Origin: Anaerolineae bacterium
GTDB lineage: Bacteria > Chloroflexota > Anaerolineae > Anaerolineales > Villigracilaceae
NCBI GenBank assembly: GCA_018645405.1
Contig: JABGOQ010000087.1
Location: forward strand, 1 to 64,000
Length of the DNA stretch: 64,000 nt
Reading direction: 5' to 3'
Under the pieces are notes generated by a model. It searched no databases and was not told where the DNA came from. It saw only the letters and a program-made list of their open reading frames with translations. The stretch's first letter is position 1, and the number at the start of each line of letters is the position of its first letter. Positions 2,808 through 13,008 of the stretch are shown here, piece after piece. The position numbers and the translations under genes are program-made.

Positions 2808-4340
2808 CTAATGTTTAAAATGTCTCACACCCGTCAAAACCATCGCAATGCCCAACTCATCTGCTTTGGCAATGACTTTTTCATCTCGAATTGAGCCGCC
2901 GGGTTGGATAATGGCTGTCACGCCGAGTTTGGCGGCTTCTTCTACACCATCAGGGAAGGGGAAGAAGGCGTCAGATGCCATGACAGAACCTTTTGCTTCA
3001 TCGCCAGCGCGTTCACCAGCGATGCGGACACAATCTACGCGGTTGGGTTGCCCGCCACCAATGCCAACGGTGAAGTTGCGCTCATCATCGCTTTTGGCGA
3101 GCAAGATGGCGTTCGATTTAACGGGTTGGACAGCTTTCCAGGCAAATCGGAGGGCATCCATTTCTTGGGCAGTGGGCTGTTTTTTTGTGGGGATACGCCA
3201 TTCGGGCGAATCGCCTGGGTCACCGGTATCCACTTCTTGGCGCAAAAATCCACCCACAACGGCACGCAAGTCGTGGGTCACGCGCGGCGCGTCCAGTTCC
3301 ACTTCCAAGAGACGTAGATTTTTCTTTTTGGCGAGGAAAGCACGCGCATCCGCATCAAAAGATGGGGCAATAATACACTCGACGAAGAGCTTGCCCATCT
3401 CATCCACAAAATCGGCGTTGACTTCACGATTGCTGGCAATGACGCTGCCGAAAGCCGAAACGGGATCGCTGGCAATGGCGAGGGCGACCGCATCTTCGAC
3501 AGAAAAAGCGGTGGCGATGCCGCAGGGGCTGAGATGCTTGACGACCACGACTGCGGGGGTATCGAAATTCAGAACGGCGTTCCATGCGCCATCGAGATCG
3601 AGCATATTATTATAGGAAATGGGCTTGCCTTGCAGGAGTTTTCCACCCATCGGGGTTGCGCCAGGATTTTCGGCATAATATGCCGCGCTCTGATGCGGAT
3701 TTTCGCCATAGCGTAGGGTTTGGATGGGGTAAAGAGTGAGATTGATGGGCGTGTTCTTACCGCTGTCCTTCGCGGCGTTTTCTAGCGCGGCAAAATAATT
3801 TTGGATGGCGTTATCGTAGCGCGATGTGGTCACGAAGACTTTGGATGCCATTTTTTGACGGAATTTCTCGTCGTTGAGACTCGCCACGTCATCGGGATAA
3901 TCAGCGGGGATGCTGAGGGTGGTGACACGCGCAAAATTCTTCGCCGCTGCGCGCAAAAGTGCCACGCCGCCGATGTCTATATTTTCAATTGCCTTCTCAA
4001 GGGTGACATCGGGCTGGGCGATAACTGCTTCAAAGGGGTAGAGGTTGACGACTACCAAATCGATGGTTTGCCAGCCTTGCGCGGCGAGGTCGGCGCGGTC
4101 TGCGTCTGTATCACGTGCCAAAATCCCGGCGTGGATGGCGGGATGCAGGGTTTTTACGCGCCCGTCAAACATTTCTGGTGCGCCAGTGATTTCGGCAACG
4201 GGCGTTACGGACAATCCCGCTTCTTTGAGCGCGCGGGCTGTCCCGCCGCTGGCGACCAAACGCCAATCGGCTGCTGCGAGTTTTTTGGCGAGTTCGATGA
4301 TGCCTTCTTTGTTCCAAACTGAGAGTAGGGCTGTTTTCAT
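2808..4340 (-). CDS. purH: Bifunctional AICAR formyltransferase / IMP cyclohydrolase
   Basis: This 510-residue enzyme performs the last two steps of purine synthesis: formylation of AICAR and cyclisation to IMP. The N-terminal MGS-like cyclohydrolase domain covers about residues 1-195 and includes LVASGGTARAL and VNLYPF. The C-terminal transformylase domain follows, with RYGENPHQ and the catalytic KHLSPCG motif. The start at 4340 is chosen because MKTALLSVWNKEG is the usual N-terminus and a GGAG site precedes it; a longer upstream extension is not family-like. It sits between hisF and hisI. AICAR is the by-product of HisF/HisH, so its placement joins histidine synthesis to purine salvage of that by-product. 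Confidence 0.97.
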   Translation of the reverse strand: MKTALLSVWNKEGIIELAKKLAAADWRLVASGGTARALKEAGLSVTPVAEITGAPEMFDGRVKTLHPAIHAGILARDTDADRADLAAQGWQTIDLVVVNLYPFEAVIAQPDVTLEKAIENIDIGGVALLRAAAKNFARVTTLSIPADYPDDVASLNDEKFRQKMASKVFVTTSRYDNAIQNYFAALENAAKDSGKNTPINLTLYPIQTLRYGENPHQSAAYYAENPGATPMGGKLLQGKPISYNNMLDLDGAWNAVLNFDTPAVVVVKHLSPCGIATAFSVEDAVALAIASDPVSAFGSVIASNREVNADFVDEMGKLFVECIIAPSFDADARAFLAKKKNLRLLEVELDAPRVTHDLRAVVGGFLRQEVDTGDPGDSPEWRIPTKKQPTAQEMDALRFAWKAVQPVKSNAILLAKSDDERNFTVGIGGGQPNRVDCVRIAGERAGDEAKGSVMASDAFFPFPDGVEEAAKLGVTAIIQPGGSIRDEKVIAKADELGIAMVLTGVRHFKH

Positions 4341-4359
4341 TTTTATTCTCCAAAAATAA

Positions 4360-4431
4360 AACCGCCAAGACGCAGAGTGCGCCAAGTTTTTTATAGAGAC
4401 GCCAAGAAAAAACTCGGCGTTCTTGGCGGTT
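4360..4431. repeat. Imperfect intergenic palindrome between purH and hisF
   Basis: The left arm AACCGCCAAGACGC is answered by a right arm that is its near reverse complement, ending CTTGGCGGTT. CGCCAAG recurs at roughly 10- to 20-base spacing. It lies between the hisF stop codon and the purH ribosome binding site. Confidence 0.75.
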
Positions 4432-4436
4432 GAAAA

Positions 4437-5195
4437 TCACATAATTCGTACGGGGATATTTCTTCTACGCAACTCTTCTTTCACTTCTGTAATTGTCAAT
4501 ACTTTGTCGTGAAAAAGCGATGCGGCTAAGGCGGCATCTGCTCCACCCAATGTCACAGCTTCGGCGAAATGCCCCACGTTTCCCGCTCCGCCGCTGGCGA
4601 TGACGGGCACATTTACCGCGTCTGCGATTGCGCGGGTGAGTGCCAAGTTATAGCCGGCGAGCGTCCCGTCTGCGTCCATACTGGTCAGCAAAATTTCGCC
4701 CGCGCCCATTTCCACGCCGCGCCGCGCCCATTCTACTGCGTCCAATCCAGTCGCTTTTCTGCCGCCGTGCGTATAGACGTCCCAACTTTCGCCTTTCTTT
4801 TTCGCGTCAATCGCCAAGACGATACACTGCGCCCCAAACTTTTTTGCGGATTCGGATAAAAGTGCGGGATTTGCCACAGCAGATGAATTGATCCCGATCT
4901 TATCTGCCCCTGCCAGCAGAGCGAGACGCGCGTCTTCGACAGAGCGGATGCCGCCTCCAACAGTAAGCGGCAAAAAAACTTGCTCGGCGACCCTCCGCAC
5001 AACATCGAGCATGGTCTCTTTACCCTCGTGCGTTGCGGATATGTCGAGGAAGATTAGTTCGTCGGCTCCCATCTCATCATAGGCTTTTGCCTGTTCTACA
5101 GGGTCGCCCGCGTCTCGCAAGCCGACAAAGTTGACTCCCTTAACCACGCGCCCTTCTTTTACGTCTAAACAAGGGATGATTCTTTTTGCTAACAT
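4437..5195 (-). CDS. hisF: Imidazole glycerol phosphate synthase, cyclase subunit
   Basis: This 252-residue (beta-alpha)8-barrel uses ammonia delivered by HisH to convert PRFAR into imidazole glycerol phosphate and AICAR. The catalytic aspartates are visible as Asp11 (IIPCLDV) and Asp130 (VLAIDAK). The two phosphate-binding loops GGGIRS (80-85) and ASGGAG in the C-terminal half are present. The length is standard and the N-terminus [12 protein letters not shown] is family-typical. It lies downstream of hisA and upstream of purH, so the enzyme that uses its AICAR product is made next in the operon. Confidence 0.98.
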
Positions 5196-5204
5196 GAGAA
5201 CCCC

Positions 5205-5265
5205 TTACGTAAAACGTATTGTGTAAAATGTAAAAAAACTTCGTGCTCTTCGTGTGACTTCGTGG
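5205..5265. repeat. Periodic repeat words between hisF and hisA
   Basis: CTTCGTG words recur three times between 5239 and 5265 at about 10-base spacing. They are preceded by an ACGTAAAACGTA-type stretch from 5205. No good pairing arm for the CTTCGTG block is seen here, so this looks like a half element of the palindromic class found in the other his gaps. Confidence 0.55.
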
Positions 5266-5271
5266 ATTCTT

Positions 5272-5997
5272 TTAACATTTGATAGCCTCCTCTAGCGTGA
5301 TGTGATTTTCATAAAGCGCGCGTCCGATAATCACTCCACTCAAACCTGCTTCTTTGACTTCTCGGACATGTGCCAGCGTTTTGATTCCGCCGGAAGCGAT
5401 GACATCTAGTCCCGTTTTTTCTGCCAATTGACGCGTGTTCTTTGTATCGTTGCCAACACTCATTCCATCTGTGGCGATGTTGGTGTAATTGATTCTCGTC
5501 GCACCGATGTCCACTAATGCCTCAGCAAATTCAAAGAGAGAGCGATCCGAGGGCTTTTGCCATCCACGCGCCATAAGGGCACCATCCCGCGCATCCAAGC
5601 CGAAGACAATTTGTTCAGCTCCAAATTTGTCTATTGCTTTCTTTGCAAAGGAGAAATCTTCGAGAATGGACGTGCCTACAATAACACGAGTGAAGCCAAG
5701 ATTAAGGGCATTTTCAATATCGGAGAGAGTGCGGATGCCACCGCCCAACTGCGTGGAGATTTTGTCTCCACATGCTGCGATAATTTTCTCAAGAGCGGCA
5801 TAATTCGCTTGAGTATTTTCGCCGAATGCGCCATCAAGATTGATGAGATGCAACCAAGTTGCGCCCTGCGAGAGCCATTTTTGGGCAACTTCAACGGGGT
5901 CGTTACTATATTCTTTTTGCTGATTTGGGTCGCCCTGACTCAATCGGACAACTTGCCCGTTGCGCAGGTCGATGGCGGGGTAAATGGTGAAGGTCAT
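5272..5997 (-). CDS. hisA: ProFAR isomerase
   Basis: This 241-residue (beta-alpha)8-barrel isomerises ProFAR to PRFAR, the step before HisF/HisH. The catalytic aspartates are Asp10 in YPAIDLRNG and Asp135 in FGLDARDG. The phosphate-binding loops GGGIRT (85-90) and ASGGIKT follow the usual spacing. The start at 5997 is preferred over a longer reading because MTFTIYPAIDL is the conserved N-terminus and AAGGAG lies just upstream. It is co-directional between hisH and hisF. No trp-pathway priA role can be judged from sequence alone. Confidence 0.97.
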   Translation of the reverse strand: MTFTIYPAIDLRNGQVVRLSQGDPNQQKEYSNDPVEVAQKWLSQGATWLHLINLDGAFGENTQANYAALEKIIAACGDKISTQLGGGIRTLSDIENALNLGFTRVIVGTSILEDFSFAKKAIDKFGAEQIVFGLDARDGALMARGWQKPSDRSLFEFAEALVDIGATRINYTNIATDGMSVGNDTKNTRQLAEKTGLDVIASGGIKTLAHVREVKEAGLSGVIIGRALYENHITLEEAIKC

Positions 5998-6013
5998 ATT
6001 TTGCTCCTTAATG

Positions 6014-6106
6014 GAACGCGAATTGCGCTGATTGTGCGGATTCTCGCAGATTTTAAAAGCCAAAAAAGTTTTTAAAAATCCGCGCAAATCCGCAGAATCC
6101 GCGTTC
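6014..6106. repeat. Imperfect intergenic palindrome between hisA and hisH
   Basis: The left arm begins GAACGCGAATTGCGC and the right arm ends AATCCGCGTTC. Words of the type TCCGC/GCGGA recur at about 10-base spacing in both arms. The right end touches the hisH stop codon at 6106, so the element fills the gap up to the coding sequence. Confidence 0.75.
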
Positions 6107-6717
6107 TATATTTTTTCAACAAAGTTTCTCAAAATCTGCAAGCCTATTTTCTGGCTTTTTTCGGGGTGAAATTGCACTCCGTAGATATTTTCTGCGTTCA
6201 CAATGGATGTGAATTTAATACCGTATTCTGTGCTGGCGAGTGAGCGCGCGGCGTTTGCTGTCTCACAATAATATCCGTGATTGAAATAAACGTAGCTCTC
6301 GTCTGGGAGTTCGCTGGTGAGCGGATTTTCCTTTTCAAAAGCGATTGTATTCCAGCCAATTTGCGGGATTTTGAGCGATTTGTCTTCAAAGTCAAAGCCG
6401 AGGACGCGTCCGGGCAAAATCCCCAACCCTTCATGGATGCCGTGTTCGTGTCCCTCGTCAAAAAAAAGTTGCATCCCCAAGCAGATGCCCAAGAGCGGTT
6501 TTCCAGATGCGGCGAATTCTTTGATGACAGGAATGAGATTATTCGCTTCCAAGCCATCCATGCCGTCTTTGAACGCGCCAACGCCGGGCAAAATTGTTTT
6601 ATCGGCGGTCAAAATTTTCTCGACAGAGTTCGTAATTTGCGCCTGCCCGCCCACAAACTCAATCGCCTTTTGAACGGAGTGAAGGTTGCCTGCGCCGTAG
6701 TCTATGATTGCTATCAT
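6106..6717 (-). CDS. hisH: Imidazole glycerol phosphate synthase, glutaminase subunit
   Basis: This 203-residue class I glutamine amidotransferase hydrolyses glutamine and channels ammonia into HisF. The nucleophile Cys79 lies in GICLGMQ, and the catalytic His184 and Glu186 lie in QFHPEKS. The start at 6717 gives the canonical MIAIIDYGAGN; an AAAGGA site lies just upstream and the longer open frame has no family support. The gene is separated from hisB by 34 bases and is followed by hisA. Such linkage of the glutaminase, isomerase and cyclase genes is common in his operons. Confidence 0.97.
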   Translation of the reverse strand: MIAIIDYGAGNLHSVQKAIEFVGGQAQITNSVEKILTADKTILPGVGAFKDGMDGLEANNLIPVIKEFAASGKPLLGICLGMQLFFDEGHEHGIHEGLGILPGRVLGFDFEDKSLKIPQIGWNTIAFEKENPLTSELPDESYVYFNHGYYCETANAARSLASTEYGIKFTSIVNAENIYGVQFHPEKSQKIGLQILRNFVEKI

Positions 6718-6751
6718 TTGATTTCCTTTCATTAGTGAATTTACGAAGTTT

Positions 6752-7339
6752 TTATATTTTTCCTTTTGAACTCGGTACAATGTCAGCCCTGCGCTTGTCA
6801 ATCTGTGTTGCCGCATCGAGTGCGCGGGCGAATGCCTTGAAAAGGGCTTCGGCGATGTGGTGATTGTCTTTGCCGTATAAAACGCTCAAATGCAAATTGG
6901 ATTTACTCGTCACCGCAACCGATTCAAAGAAATGTTCAATCAACGATGTTGGAATTCCTGCGACGTCGGAGCTAACCCAATTTATTTGGATGACGGAATA
7001 AGGTCTGCCCGACAAATCGAGGATGACGCGTGCGAGCGCATCGTCCATGGGGACACTTGCTTCTGCCATTCGGCGGATGCCCTGCTTTGAGCCAAGTGCC
7101 TGACCAATCGCGTCCCCAAGCACTAAGCCGCAATCTTCGATGGTGTGATGATAGTCAATATGCAAGTCCCCTTTTGCCTGCAAATCAATATCCATCAGCC
7201 CATGCAAGGCGATTTGGGTGAGCATGTGGTCGAAGAATCCGATGCCGGTGTTGATGTTGGCAATTCCTGTCCCATCAAGATTAAGAGAGAGAGAAATATC
7301 GGTTTCTTTAGTTTTTCGGTTGCTTGTAGTTTTTCGCAT
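6752..7339 (-). CDS. hisB: Imidazoleglycerol-phosphate dehydratase
   Basis: This 195-residue protein dehydrates imidazole glycerol phosphate to imidazole acetol phosphate. The manganese-binding histidines are visible in GFFDHMLTQIALHG, DYHHTIEDCG, SLIEHFFES and DNHHIAEALFKA. It is the monofunctional form: no HAD histidinol-phosphatase domain is fused to it as in enterobacterial HisB. That leaves the phosphatase step to another protein, and the operon's last gene is the local candidate. The start at 7339 follows an AAGGAG site; the upstream open frame reads through intergenic repeat. Confidence 0.97.
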   Translation of the reverse strand: MRKTTSNRKTKETDISLSLNLDGTGIANINTGIGFFDHMLTQIALHGLMDIDLQAKGDLHIDYHHTIEDCGLVLGDAIGQALGSKQGIRRMAEASVPMDDALARVILDLSGRPYSVIQINWVSSDVAGIPTSLIEHFFESVAVTSKSNLHLSVLYGKDNHHIAEALFKAFARALDAATQIDKRRADIVPSSKGKI

Positions 7340-7358
7340 AAAAACTCCTTGCTGAACT

Positions 7359-7448
7359 GCATTGCACTTGAAGTGAAACGGAAAGTGCGTTGCAGTTTGG
7401 GTGGTTTTGTAAGACCCGATGTGCAACGCATCCTATCGGATGCAATGC
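7359..7448. repeat. Intergenic palindrome between hisB and hisC
   Basis: The outer arms are GCATTGCAC (7359-7367) and a complementary GCAATGC (7442-7448). Inner GTGCGTTGCA and TGTGCAACGCA words also pair. The element fills most of the hisB-hisC gap. Confidence 0.65.
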
Positions 7449-7452
7449 ACAC

Positions 7453-8535
7453 CTACATTTTCTTCAAAGCTTTCAACACTGCATCCACTTGCTCAGGCGT
7501 GCCAACGCTGATGCGGATATGGTCGTCTAAGCCGGGTTTGTTGAAGTAGCGGATGAGAATGCCTTGTTTTGCCAAATCCGCTTTGAGAGCGGCGGCATCT
7601 CGCCCGACGACACGGCAGAGAATGAAGTTGGATTGGGATGGATAGGGTTCTAAATAATCTACCTTCTGTAACTCTGCATAAAGTCGTTCACGTTCGGCGA
7701 TGATTTTTTGACCGATTTCTTCGAGTTGGTCGGCGTGACGGAGGGCGGCTAGCGCAGCTTCACTCGCGGCAACGGAAACATTATAGGGCTGTTTGGCTGT
7801 CCAGAGATAGGGCATCAGCCAAGAGGGGAAGACTCCGTATCCAACTCGGAGACCGGCTAGCCCTGCCCATTTGCTGAAGGTGCGGAGGACGATTAAATTC
7901 TCTCTTTTAGCGACTTCTCGGATCTGCGTTGAGGCGGGCGGGGCGAATTCCATGTAAGCTTCGTCGAGGACGAGGAGCAGATTCTGTTTCAGCAAGGCAT
8001 CCAGCAATTTGGGGGCAAGCAAGCCTCCATCAGGGTTGTTCGGCGTGGCGAGGAAGAAAATCTTCGGCTGATGTTCAGCAATCGCGTCGAGGAGGGCATC
8101 CGCATCCACAGAAAAATCATCCAAACGAGGAATATCAATTATCTGCCCACCGTTGATGGCAGTGTCGAAGGCGTACATCCCAAAAGTTGGAGGGCAATTG
8201 AGAATGGTGTCGCCGGGATTGATGAAAAAGCGGAGGAGAAGATCAATAAGCTCGTCGGCACCCGCTCCGGCAAGGATATTTTCAACGGGAATTTGGTGAT
8301 AATCGGCAAGGGCGCGGCGGAGAAAACGGCTCTCGGGGTCGGGGTAAATGTGGGCGTAGGGCAGGCTGTAGAGGGCATCGGCGACGGCGGGGAGAATGCC
8401 GTAGGGGTTTTCGTTGGCATCAAGTTTGATAATTTTCTCAGCGGGAATGCCAAGTTGCTCGGAAAGTGCCTCGAAGGGGAGGATGGGGGTATAGGGTTCG
8501 AGGTCGAGGAGGTGGGGTCTTAGAAGATTTTTCAT
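7453..8535 (-). CDS. hisC: Histidinol-phosphate aminotransferase
   Basis: This 360-residue PLP-dependent fold-type I aminotransferase converts imidazole acetol phosphate and glutamate into histidinol phosphate. The N-terminal part has LDANENPYG, the substrate-phosphate region. The PLP-contact NNPDGG and the aspartate in LVLDEAYMEF come mid-protein. The Schiff-base lysine lies in TFSKWAGLAGLRVGYG. Length and order fit HisC. The ribosome binding site is weak, so expression may depend on readthrough from hisD. The gap to hisD is occupied by a 95-base palindromic element. Confidence 0.95.
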   Translation of the reverse strand: MKNLLRPHLLDLEPYTPILPFEALSEQLGIPAEKIIKLDANENPYGILPAVADALYSLPYAHIYPDPESRFLRRALADYHQIPVENILAGAGADELIDLLLRFFINPGDTILNCPPTFGMYAFDTAINGGQIIDIPRLDDFSVDADALLDAIAEHQPKIFFLATPNNPDGGLLAPKLLDALLKQNLLLVLDEAYMEFAPPASTQIREVAKRENLIVLRTFSKWAGLAGLRVGYGVFPSWLMPYLWTAKQPYNVSVAASEAALAALRHADQLEEIGQKIIAERERLYAELQKVDYLEPYPSQSNFILCRVVGRDAAALKADLAKQGILIRYFNKPGLDDHIRISVGTPEQVDAVLKALKKM

Positions 8536-8550
8536 TTTAGGCTACTTTTT

Positions 8551-8645
8551 TTCACCACAGAGGACACGGAGTTCACAGAGTTTTTTGAGAAAAAAGAGAA
8601 GACCAAAAGGCTTTTCTCAGTGCTCTCTGTGAGCTCTGTGGTGAA
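8551..8645. repeat. Imperfect intergenic palindrome between hisC and hisD
   Basis: The left arm begins TTCACCACAGAGGACACGG and the right arm ends GAGCTCTGTGGTGAA, close reverse complements. CACAGAG/CACGGAG words repeat at about 10-base spacing in the left arm. The two arms are joined by about 40 bases of AG-rich sequence. Confidence 0.8.
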
Positions 8646-8665
8646 TCTCTGAGCGAAATTCATCA

Positions 8666-9982
8666 TTATGCATTCATCATTCTGATTTTAGACGCGTTCG
8701 CGTGCGCCGCGAGCTTCTCTGTATCCGCAAAATCGGCGGCGATGGGGCTGAGAGCAGCGGCGGTTTCGGGATCGAGGGCAACCACGCTAGAGACTTTGAC
8801 GAAATCGAGCAAGTTCAGTGGTGAAGCAAAACGGGCTGTGCCGCCAGTGGGCATGACGTGGCTGGGGCCAGCGACATAATCTCCGAGGGCTTCAAAGGAG
8901 TGTTCGCCGAGAAAGAATCCACCGGCATTGTTGATTTTATCCATCAAGGCTTTGGGATCGCGCACGGCGAGGCAAAGATGCTCTGCGGCGTAATCGTTTG
9001 CCAGTTTGGAAGCTTCTTCGAGGGTGGGGATAACAACGATTCCACCTTTATTTTCAAGAGATTCTTCGATGATTTCCGCACGGGAGAGTTTTGCAGTCTG
9101 CTCCGTGACTGCTGCCTGCACTTTTTTCGCAAAATCGGCTGAAGTGGTGAGCAAAATTGCACTCGCTTGCACATCATGCTCTGCTTGAGCGAGCAAATCT
9201 GCTGCCACCCAAGCGGGATTTGCCTCCTCATCGGCGATGACCATTGTTTCTGTTGGTCCCGCTAAACCGTCAAAACCAACCAAGCCATAAAGTTGCTGTT
9301 TGGCGAGTGTGACGAAGAGATTGCCTGCGCCGACAATTTTATCTACACGCGGCAAGGTTTCTGTCCCAAAAGCCATCGCCGCAATCGCTTGTGCGCCACC
9401 GACTTGGCAAATCTCGTCCACACCACAAATATATGCTGCCGCCAAAATCGAATCATGCGGATTTGGCGGGGTGCAGACAACCACATCCTTTACGCCCGCA
9501 ACTTGGGCGGGAATGACGCTCATCAGCAGCGACGATGGCAGCGGCGCAGTCCCGCCCGGCACATAAATGCCGACGCGTTCAATCGCTGTGAAACGCTGAC
9601 CAATTTCTCCGCCCATTTCATTCGTCAGCCAACTGGTGACGGGCTGTCTCTCGTGAAAATCACGAATCCGCGTAGCAGATTTCTCCAAAACTTCCTGCAA
9701 GCGAGCGGAGATGCGCTCATAAGCAGCAGCCAGTTCATCTTTGCCGATTTTGAAATTTGGTTCGTCAAAGCGATCGAGGGTCGCATTCCATTTCTGCACC
9801 GCCTTATCGCCATCTTCGTCAATAGATTGAAGAATCTGCATCACCGCCTGATGCGGCATCACGCCCTCGCCAAAAACAGACTCTGTCCTCGCAAGGGTGG
9901 CGGGAGAATAGCTGTCTTGGTAAATTGGATTGCGTTTTAGTAAATCTTTCTTTGCTTCTTCAAGTTGATAGATTTTAATCAT
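8666..9982 (-). CDS. hisD: Histidinol dehydrogenase
   Basis: This protein of about 438 residues oxidises histidinol twice with NAD to give histidine, the last pathway step. Conserved segments include GIYVPGGTAPLPSSLLM, VGGAQAIAAMAFGTET, GPTET, LAQAEHD, the catalytic Glu-His in AAEHLCLAV, and GPSHVMPTGGTAR. A TTG-initiated frame opens at 9994, but the GGAG in that TTGGAG is better read as the ribosome binding site for the ATG at 9982. The gene follows hisG and precedes hisC, the usual arrangement. Confidence 0.97.
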   Translation of the reverse strand: MIKIYQLEEAKKDLLKRNPIYQDSYSPATLARTESVFGEGVMPHQAVMQILQSIDEDGDKAVQKWNATLDRFDEPNFKIGKDELAAAYERISARLQEVLEKSATRIRDFHERQPVTSWLTNEMGGEIGQRFTAIERVGIYVPGGTAPLPSSLLMSVIPAQVAGVKDVVVCTPPNPHDSILAAAYICGVDEICQVGGAQAIAAMAFGTETLPRVDKIVGAGNLFVTLAKQQLYGLVGFDGLAGPTETMVIADEEANPAWVAADLLAQAEHDVQASAILLTTSADFAKKVQAAVTEQTAKLSRAEIIEESLENKGGIVVIPTLEEASKLANDYAAEHLCLAVRDPKALMDKINNAGGFFLGEHSFEALGDYVAGPSHVMPTGGTARFASPLNLLDFVKVSSVVALDPETAAALSPIAADFADTEKLAAHANASKIRMMNA

Positions 9983-10014
9983 CATAATCTCCAAGTTTTG
10001 GCTCTGTTTTTTTC

Positions 10015-10092: not shown

Positions 10093-11091
10093 TCATTCCA
10101 GTGCTTTTAGCATCGCCGTTAATTCTTCAGGCTCTTCTTCAAAAATATAATTCACATCCGAGACGACCACGCCGCTGCCCCCCACCGCGCGGATTTCACG
10201 AATCGCTTCATGCAGTTCAGATTTCGCCACAATCAGATGCACCGCGAACCAATTCTCATCGTCCCGTGTAATGACTTGCGAAATGGTCGGTCCCTGTAAG
10301 CCACCAATCACATCCTGCTCAAAAATTTTCGATGCAACACTTTCAGGAGAATCCCCGCGGATATTCGCAAAAATCGCCAAACGGTCTTCTGCTCGCAAAT
10401 ACGCGCTCAAAACTTCCAAAAGTTGCACCGCAATCTCCCGCACATCTTCATTTTCCTTCAAACGCGCCTTGTTCGCAATCAAACAAGCCTGCGCTTTCAA
10501 AATCTCGCCACCCCCCAAAATCTTCAAATGGTTGTCTCGCAAAGTCGTGCCCGTTGAGACAATATCCATAATCAAATCGGCATAGCCTACGGTTGGCGAG
10601 ATTTCTAAAGTGCCTTCTGCTTGGATGATTCTAAACTGGATGCCGCTATTCTGCTTAAGAAATTGCGTAGTCAGATTTGGGAATTTGGACGCAATTTTAA
10701 GTTCGCGTTTTAGGCTTGCTTCCATTATGGACAGATCGGCGAGGGAATTAACATCTTCCCACTCCTGCGGCACAATCATATTCAAGGAGCATTTTCCAAA
10801 CCCCAATTTTTGATGCAATTCAAGAATATCGCCATTCTCACCTTTCTTCTCAAGGAAAATATCGCGTCCTGTAATGCCAAAATCCACGCTCCCGTCGCGT
10901 ACACTATAAACAATATCCGTAGGACGCTGAAAGATAATCTCCACATTCGGAAAACGTGGAATAGTCGCCATATACTGGCGTGGATTCGGCTTATAAACCT
11001 TAAAGCCCACCTTGGCGAGTAGCTCCTTGCTCTTCTCTCCCAAACGTCCCTTGCTAGGGAGGGAGATTCTGATTTTACGGTCTTCTTGCAT
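10093..11091 (-). CDS. hisG: ATP phosphoribosyltransferase, long form
   Basis: This 332-residue enzyme commits ATP and PRPP to histidine synthesis. The N-terminus RISLPSKGRL and the later DIVSTGTTLRDN loop (PRPP binding) are family signatures. The C-terminal roughly 100 residues form the regulatory domain of long HisG (for example GPTISQV and VGGSGVVVSDVNYIF), which normally confers feedback inhibition by histidine and makes HisZ unnecessary. No hisZ is present in the window. The start at 11091 follows an AAGGAG site. It is the first structural gene of the operon. It is preceded by a leader with a histidine-rich small ORF and a terminator. Confidence 0.96.
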   Translation of the reverse strand: MQEDRKIRISLPSKGRLGEKSKELLAKVGFKVYKPNPRQYMATIPRFPNVEIIFQRPTDIVYSVRDGSVDFGITGRDIFLEKKGENGDILELHQKLGFGKCSLNMIVPQEWEDVNSLADLSIMEASLKRELKIASKFPNLTTQFLKQNSGIQFRIIQAEGTLEISPTVGYADLIMDIVSTGTTLRDNHLKILGGGEILKAQACLIANKARLKENEDVREIAVQLLEVLSAYLRAEDRLAIFANIRGDSPESVASKIFEQDVIGGLQGPTISQVITRDDENWFAVHLIVAKSELHEAIREIRAVGGSGVVVSDVNYIFEEEPEELTAMLKALE

Positions 11092-11162: not shown

Positions 11163-11200
11163 AAAATAAAAAAGCACTTCCCGTGTCGAGGAAGTGCTTT
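11163..11200 (-). terminator. Candidate his attenuator terminator
   Basis: An 11-bp perfect stem (11171-11181 with 11190-11200, 8-nt loop) is followed on the minus strand by a T-rich tract of pattern TTTTTTATTTT. It lies downstream of the histidine-rich leader ORF and upstream of hisG. It would therefore stop transcription before the first structural gene unless an alternative fold forms. Confidence 0.85.
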
Positions 11201-11229
11201 TGAAAATTTACTGAGTTTTTCTGAAATTG

Positions 11230-11325
11230 CTACGAAATCTCAATCACCTTAAAGCAAACACACCCGACTTGATTGTCAGTTTTATGGGCGTGACGATGAT
11301 GAAGGTTGCTGAATACTTTTTTCAT
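11230..11325 (-). CDS. hisL: Histidine-rich leader peptide of the his operon
   Basis: This 31-codon ORF starts MKKVFSNL and continues His-His-Arg-His-Ala-His at residues 9-14. It ends with TAG 30 bases before the attenuator stem. Four histidine codons in six are unusual and sit where a stalled ribosome could influence folding of the downstream RNA, as in classical histidine attenuation. There is no Shine-Dalgarno site. The candidate -10 box ends only 10 bases before the ATG, so the transcript may be almost leaderless. Only a 6-nt complement (11251-11256 against 11195-11200) is obvious as an antiterminator pairing. The mechanism is therefore inferred. Confidence 0.7.
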   Translation of the reverse strand: MKKVFSNLHHRHAHKTDNQVGCVCFKVIEIS

Positions 11326-11335
11326 AACAGGGACG

Positions 11336-11364
11336 AGTTTATCACAGCAAAAGAGATGGTGCAA
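11336..11364 (-). promoter_or_regulatory. Candidate promoter of the his operon
   Basis: On the minus strand TTGCAC (11359-11364) and TAAACT (11336-11341) are separated by exactly 17 bases. The -10 hexamer and spacing match the metK promoter at 12854-12882. Initiation would fall one to four bases before the leader ATG. Confidence 0.65.
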
Positions 11365-12711: not shown

Positions 12712-12821
12712 CTCTCATCTTCCAGAAATTTCACTGCCGGAATTAGCACCTTGATTTTTTATAAAAAAACTAGGTTGCCGAGGCTTCAAAGGGCCGGTCC
12801 CTCCGCCTCTCTGGATAAGAG
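12712..12821 (-). promoter_or_regulatory. SAM-I (S-box) riboswitch aptamer
   Basis: Read on the minus strand, the P1 stem is CTCTTATC (12814-12821) with GATGAGAG (12712-12719). Between them are the S-box consensus blocks AGAGAGGCGGAGGGAC, CCTTTGAAGCCTCGGCAACC and AAGGTGCTAATTCC in the right order. SAM binding should stabilise P1 and let the downstream terminator form, closing metK expression. Confidence 0.96.
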
Positions 12822-12966: not shown

Positions 12967-13008
12967 TAAAAAATAAGCCCTGACAGGATTTGAAATCCTG
13001 TCAGGGCT
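12967..13008 (-). terminator. Intrinsic terminator after the FGE-fold lipoprotein gene
   Basis: A perfect 15-bp stem (12976-12990 with 12994-13008), 3-nt loop, is followed on the minus strand by TTATTTTTT. Its stem carries the CCTGACAGG word also seen at 2770-2802. The flanking sequence 12883-12966 shows nothing else recognisable. Confidence 0.88.

Follow-up and report, generated by a model that had tools for sequence, protein, structure and literature searches.

Does the histidine operon of this Anaerolineae bacterium carry its own regulatory leader, and if so, what does it sense? In the 64,000-nt stretch of DNA analysed here (the window), a first-pass annotation had placed a promoter (TTGCAC-17-TAAACT), a 31-codon open reading frame (ORF) encoding HHRHAH and a strong terminator, in this order, before hisG, and had read them as a putative histidine attenuator. 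The arrangement proved correct, and all its parts lie on the minus strand, which the annotation had not specified (Table 1). On the same strand, hisG heads a hisGDCBHAF(-purH) operon. The purH gene, assigned by Pfam (2808-4385, minus strand), begins after a 51-nt gap 3' of hisF; its product would consume the AICAR given off by HisF/HisH. The upstream neighbor of the his unit is metK with its SAM riboswitch (12712-12821, minus strand). Since metK is closed by a strong terminator of its own (11411-11375, minus strand), which immediately precedes the his unit, the two form separate units. Between the metK riboswitch and the next gene lies a perfect 15-bp inverted repeat, AGCCCTGACAGGATTTGAAATCCTGTCAGGGCT (12976-13008), which is terminator-like on the minus strand.

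Table 1. The hisG leader and the his operon in the window. Some start codons in the hisDCBHAF stretch (4437-9994) are uncertain.
Feature	Position	Strand	Details and basis
Promoter, predicted sigma-70	TTGCAC 11364-11359, 17-nt spacer, TAAACT 11341-11336	minus	Sequence; aligned and equally spaced in relatives
Leader ORF	11325-11230	minus	ATG at 11325, 31 codons, MKKVFSNLHHRHAHKTDNQVGCVCFKVIEIS, stop ends at 11230; without Shine-Dalgarno
His codons, putative regulatory	11301-11284	minus	CAT CAT CGT CAC GCC CAT = HHRHAH
Segment 1, CUGAC	11275-11279	minus	Just past the last His codon; able to form a protector hairpin with segment 2; minimum-energy folds
Segment 2, antiterminator strand	GUCGGG 11268-11263 and GUUUGCUUU 11259-11251	minus	Inside leader ORF; covariation in 33 relatives
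Segment 3, terminator 5' arm and loop	11185-11201	minus	AAAAGCACUUCCUCGAC; partner is segment 2 or segment 4
Intrinsic terminator	13-bp stem 11201-11170, U tract to 11163	minus	Sequence
hisG Shine-Dalgarno	11101-11097	minus	AGGAG; sequence; leader ORF without one
hisG, ATP phosphoribosyltransferase	10093-11091, ATG at 11091	minus	Long form with HisG_C domain; Pfam PF01634 and PF08029
hisD	8666-9994	minus	Pfam
hisC	7453-8535	minus	Named from aminotransferase fold family (Pfam) and operon context
hisB	6752-7426	minus	Pfam
hisH	6106-6816	minus	Named from GATase fold family (Pfam) and operon context
hisA	5272-6087	minus	Named from His_biosynth fold family (Pfam) and operon context
hisF	4437-5195	minus	Named from His_biosynth fold family (Pfam) and operon context

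Four His in some six codons of a 30-codon ORF would occur by chance with P ~4e-5, given the His frequency of 2.0% in 4350 codons of neighboring genes. The window contains 12 His-cluster ORFs on its two strands, two of which adjoin a promoter-like site. Such an ORF is not unique within the window; the decisive evidence is its conservation in relatives.

The comparison covered the hisG loci of 108 genomes from the order (46 from the same family and 62 from other families), 60 more genomes of the phylum (8 from the rest of the class and 52 from other classes) and 40 further genomes of the class. A His-cluster ORF was defined by at least three His in five codons at most 650 nt upstream of the hisG hit, and was called promoter-adjacent if a sigma-70-like promoter lay 5-12 nt before its start. 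In the order, such an ORF precedes hisG in 99 of 108 genomes (44/46 in the same family, 55/62 in other families), and 92 of the 108 (41/46 and 51/62) also have the adjoining promoter. Of the 99 leaders, 97 have a terminator at the equivalent position after the ORF. The attenuator reading is thereby supported: a lack of conserved His codons in related leaders, named at first pass as a finding that would refute it, was not observed. On the antisense strand, no promoter-adjacent His-cluster ORF was found in the 108 regions of the order, nor in any of the 168 regions taken together. The rest of the class yielded His-cluster ORFs upstream of hisG in 0 of 8 genomes and then in 7 of 40, several of the seven appearing promoter-adjacent. 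The other classes yielded 3 in 52, none of them promoter-adjacent, for which reason we rejected these three as real leaders and take them as chance occurrences. Nearly every hisG-bearing genome sampled from the order has the triple of promoter, ORF and terminator.

The leaders of the relatives have a median of 24 codons (range 11-33) with three to eight His each, and are too short for routine gene callers, as had been surmised for the ORF in the window. Of 505 codons in the His clusters, 292 are CAT and 130 CAC; both are used, and it is therefore the amino acid, not the codon, that is conserved. Beyond the His run and the RNA segments described below, neither the peptide sequence nor the remaining stretches of the leader are conserved.

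The absence of a Shine-Dalgarno sequence before the leader ORF, already noted at first pass, was confirmed. By scan, 75 of 99 leaders have a -10 box that ends 6-11 nt ahead of the ATG, most commonly 10 nt, as in the window; several of the exceptions are scan errors in which a later ATG was chosen. Because transcription usually starts 6-8 nt past the -10 box, this spacing would leave a 5' UTR of about 0-4 nt. For the window, the expected transcription start lies near 11328, which would make the 5' UTR about 3 nt long. The leader mRNA is likely leaderless or nearly so, and a start at or near the ATG is the likely reason why no Shine-Dalgarno sequence is present.

In the leaders with a terminator, part of the distal ORF has the sequence to pair with the 5' arm and loop of that terminator, and the first antiterminator helix ends within the ORF in 85 of 97. 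The longest antiterminator helix has 7 bp or more in 49% of the real leaders, against 9% when the leader is shuffled and 18% with the terminator arm of another family. This helix-length test, together with a column-based covariation count, replaced a swap of terminator arms between genomes scored by duplex energy, which is a weak test because many genomes share sequences. In the window, the main helix of the antiterminator pairs 11268-11263 with 11190-11185, and the inner part of the antiterminator pairs 11256-11251 with 11200-11195. The first-pass annotation had recognized the latter as the sole, short antiterminator complement; the pairing is indeed present, but it belongs to a longer antiterminator that shows compensatory changes. 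Altogether, 69 distinct antiterminator helices occur among the leaders.

Covariation was assessed in an alignment of 33 sequences (A1), whose 7-pair helix was scored against 500 shuffles. Standard pairs fill 88.5% of cells (82.6% in shuffles), 17 cells show double compensatory changes (6.8 in shuffles) and the covariation score is 0.297 (0.207 in shuffles); by each measure, none of the 500 shuffles scored as high. Examples of compensatory change are GACCGG:CCGGTC, GGTCGG:CCGACC and GATCGG:CCGATC. Sequences of common descent may surpass such shuffles through their shared history alone, which makes a slide control important: when the partner strand was shifted by 1-3 columns, pairing fell to 12-56%. 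RNAalifold, unprompted, selected most of the same helix. Judged from these comparisons, the antiterminator is real, being dependent on the leader sequence and mutually exclusive with the terminator.

These elements suggest the following mechanism. Transcription would begin some 3 nt ahead of the leader AUG. A ribosome would therefore initiate directly at the RNA 5' end, with no Shine-Dalgarno sequence. When charged tRNA-His is scarce, the ribosome would linger at the His codons, which immediately precede segment 1, leaving segment 2 free to pair with the emerging terminator 5' arm and loop in the helix supported by covariation. This 2:3 pairing would block the terminator and allow RNA polymerase to read into hisG. 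When histidine is plentiful, the ribosome would reach the stop codon, and segment 2 would be covered or held in a 1:2 hairpin; the terminator could then fold, ending transcription before hisG.

We folded 97 leaders in a state before synthesis of the terminator 3' arm, masking 30 nt as the footprint of the ribosome. On average, the leader holds 5.4 bases of segment 3 without a ribosome, 8.8 with a ribosome stalled at the first His codon, 8.3 at the last His codon and 3.9 at the stop codon. In this footprint-masked folding, stalling exceeds the stop state by more than two bases in 67 of the 97 leaders, as would be expected if the position of the ribosome selects the structure, and the reverse holds in four; in some relatives (L003 and L139), the contrast between the states is absent. 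For the window, the values are 6.8 without a ribosome, 12.1 and 12.4 for the first and last His codon, and 7.5 at the stop codon, a moderate contrast. The complete RNA of the window, folded either without a ribosome or with one at the last His codon, has the terminator as its minimum-energy fold both times. Because the terminator wins in both of these states, the switch must act kinetically, by the order of events.

In the window, some 30 nt separate segment 2 from the stop codon. Because a ribosome at the stop codon does not cover this segment, silencing in the window must be done by the 1:2 hairpin. The position and register of this hairpin vary between subclades, and the element that silences segment 2 under plentiful histidine seems to differ between them. 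By inspection, the putative protector hairpin in the window's genus is an upstream CUGAC:GUCGG pairing, and that in other subclades is CCUGC:GCAGG with segment 2 in its loop.

Could the terminator and the short ORF be unrelated, the former ending an upstream transcript and the latter a product of chance? The dozen His-cluster ORFs in the window and its many terminator-like sites would allow this, but metK already ends at a terminator of its own, and the conservation data refute it: the triple is near-universal in the order and absent from the antisense and outgroup regions. We consider this explanation extremely improbable. The leader might instead sense histidine or tRNA-His directly, as a riboswitch or T-box, the ORF being incidental. 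It is structured, with both terminator and antiterminator, and his operons in Firmicutes and Actinobacteria are known to be under T-boxes (PMC9413887). Rfam, however, gave just chance-level matches over the window leader at gathering and permissive thresholds. No T-box was found at the Rfam gathering cut-off in the window leader or at 19 related hisG loci, and no Rfam family covers the leader at any of these loci. Furthermore, conservation extends to codons whose third position varies freely and to a start set at the promoter, but not to stretches outside the pairing segments, which makes direct sensing highly improbable.

A further explanation is that the leader works mainly through translation or RNA stability, for example by ribosome release or a peptide with a role of its own, while the terminator is constitutive. 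It has a precedent in the mycobacterial polycysteine leaderless ORFs, which are described, in the account of Canestrari 2020 given in PMC9031893, as controlling downstream translation. At the his locus, the helix that covaries is the one that competes with the terminator, far from the hisG Shine-Dalgarno sequence, and the peptide is not kept beyond the His run and the RNA segments; we regard this explanation, too, as very unlikely. Our favored reading, held with a probability of roughly 0.88, is that the hisGDCBHAF operon is under ribosome-mediated histidine attenuation, and from the sequences we infer that the leader responds to histidine.

To survey the occurrence of this leader, a covariance model (R1) built from A1 was used to search 30 related genomes. 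All matches of at least 29.9 bits are hisG leaders. Those below 29 bits, which were partly inspected singly, are mostly chance matches; several share the same anatomy of promoter, ATG about 10 nt past the -10 box, codon run and terminator. A his-related leader, MKTICTFSLICISLKNRRRCRAVIL, with a terminator lies directly before a tRNA gene in the window's own genome (L264 516-731; G000:C98:27515-27730). Such leaders also occur as L266/L319 (G059) and L320 (G085), thus in three of the nine genomes of the genus, and the anticodons downstream differ (UAU, CAU and UUU). The idea that this leader senses AUA codons is weakened because one copy precedes tRNA-Lys(UUU).

Leaderless Thr-rich leaders with a terminator precede aspartokinase genes (MKSVCFTMSMTTTTSRFSVRNLCLD, L269, G004:C63:59451-59597, minus strand; MFLPWSMTVTTTALRTLREEFVFGRM, L280, G005:C144:1514-1649, minus strand) and are likely threonine attenuators. 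A leaderless Arg-rich leader with a terminator before argG (MLNENIRRARRPQPTSPQEGWELLR, L267, G104:C25:5811-5947, plus strand) is a possible arginine attenuator. Leaderless Thr/Asn-rich leaders with a terminator precede the same gene in two genomes (MKNFFRPTTNDNNTNTRRIYEALAHSYR, L277, in the window's own genome, G000:C95:8772-8915, plus strand; MSKRMNSDVNTTTTMMTNPLFPG, L270, G104:C452:69-206, plus strand). This gene reads like a PLP aminotransferase; its N-terminal fragments had no match in Pfam or NCBIfam. Relatives showed no matching leaders for Trp or branched-chain amino acids upstream of trpE and ilvB; ilvB there closely follows another gene. That leaderless leader-peptide attenuation is general in Anaerolineales, with units for threonine (aspartokinase), arginine (argG) and perhaps more, and with one copy controlling tRNA transcription by ribosome stalling, is a tentative proposal against which we would place the odds.

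In Proteobacteria, leader-peptide attenuation of his operons is a known mode of control; for Firmicutes, it has been predicted (PMC9413887). At the time of a survey in 2010, leader-peptide systems were known solely in Proteobacteria and Actinobacteria, to which the survey added Firmicutes (PMC2965389). In the literature searched, which largely leaves out subscription papers, we found no report of such attenuation in Chloroflexi/Chloroflexota. The enterobacterial his leader (RF00514) likewise combines a His-rich leader peptide, a terminator and a competing antiterminator before hisG. The leader described here differs from it in having no Shine-Dalgarno sequence, an antiterminator strand within the leader ORF and an unrelated sequence, in keeping with the initial expectation that the control could depart in detail from the classical case. 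RF00514 matched neither the window leader nor those of the 19 related hisG loci; its placement in the window, at 19.4 bits (cut-off 49), falls over the metK terminator. In Firmicutes, comparative genomics has predicted candidate his attenuators (Ashniev 2022, PMC9413887) that also have His-codon runs with a terminator and antiterminator upstream of his genes. They are scattered over 17 species, whereas the present leader belongs to another phylum and is near-universal in the hisG-bearing genomes of an order.

Two actinobacterial systems come close in other respects. The Corynebacterium ilvBNC attenuator (Morbach 2000), as summarized in PMC4046766 and PMC10272879, has a leader peptide without a ribosome-binding site and terminator-based attenuation, but serves branched-chain amino acids. 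The mycobacterial polycysteine ORFs, again as PMC9031893 relates them, share the leaderless ORF and the codon run for the controlled amino acid; there, the amino acid is cysteine and the cys operons have no conserved upstream terminator (PMC1262725), in contrast to the intrinsic terminator found here. A device that is nearly fixed throughout an order, as far as its hisG-bearing genomes were sampled, and that apparently operates without a Shine-Dalgarno sequence, would offer a natural test of leaderless translation coupled to transcription termination. As far as its sequence tells, its principle is that of the classical his attenuators; new are the lineage, the unrelated sequence and the likely leaderless start.
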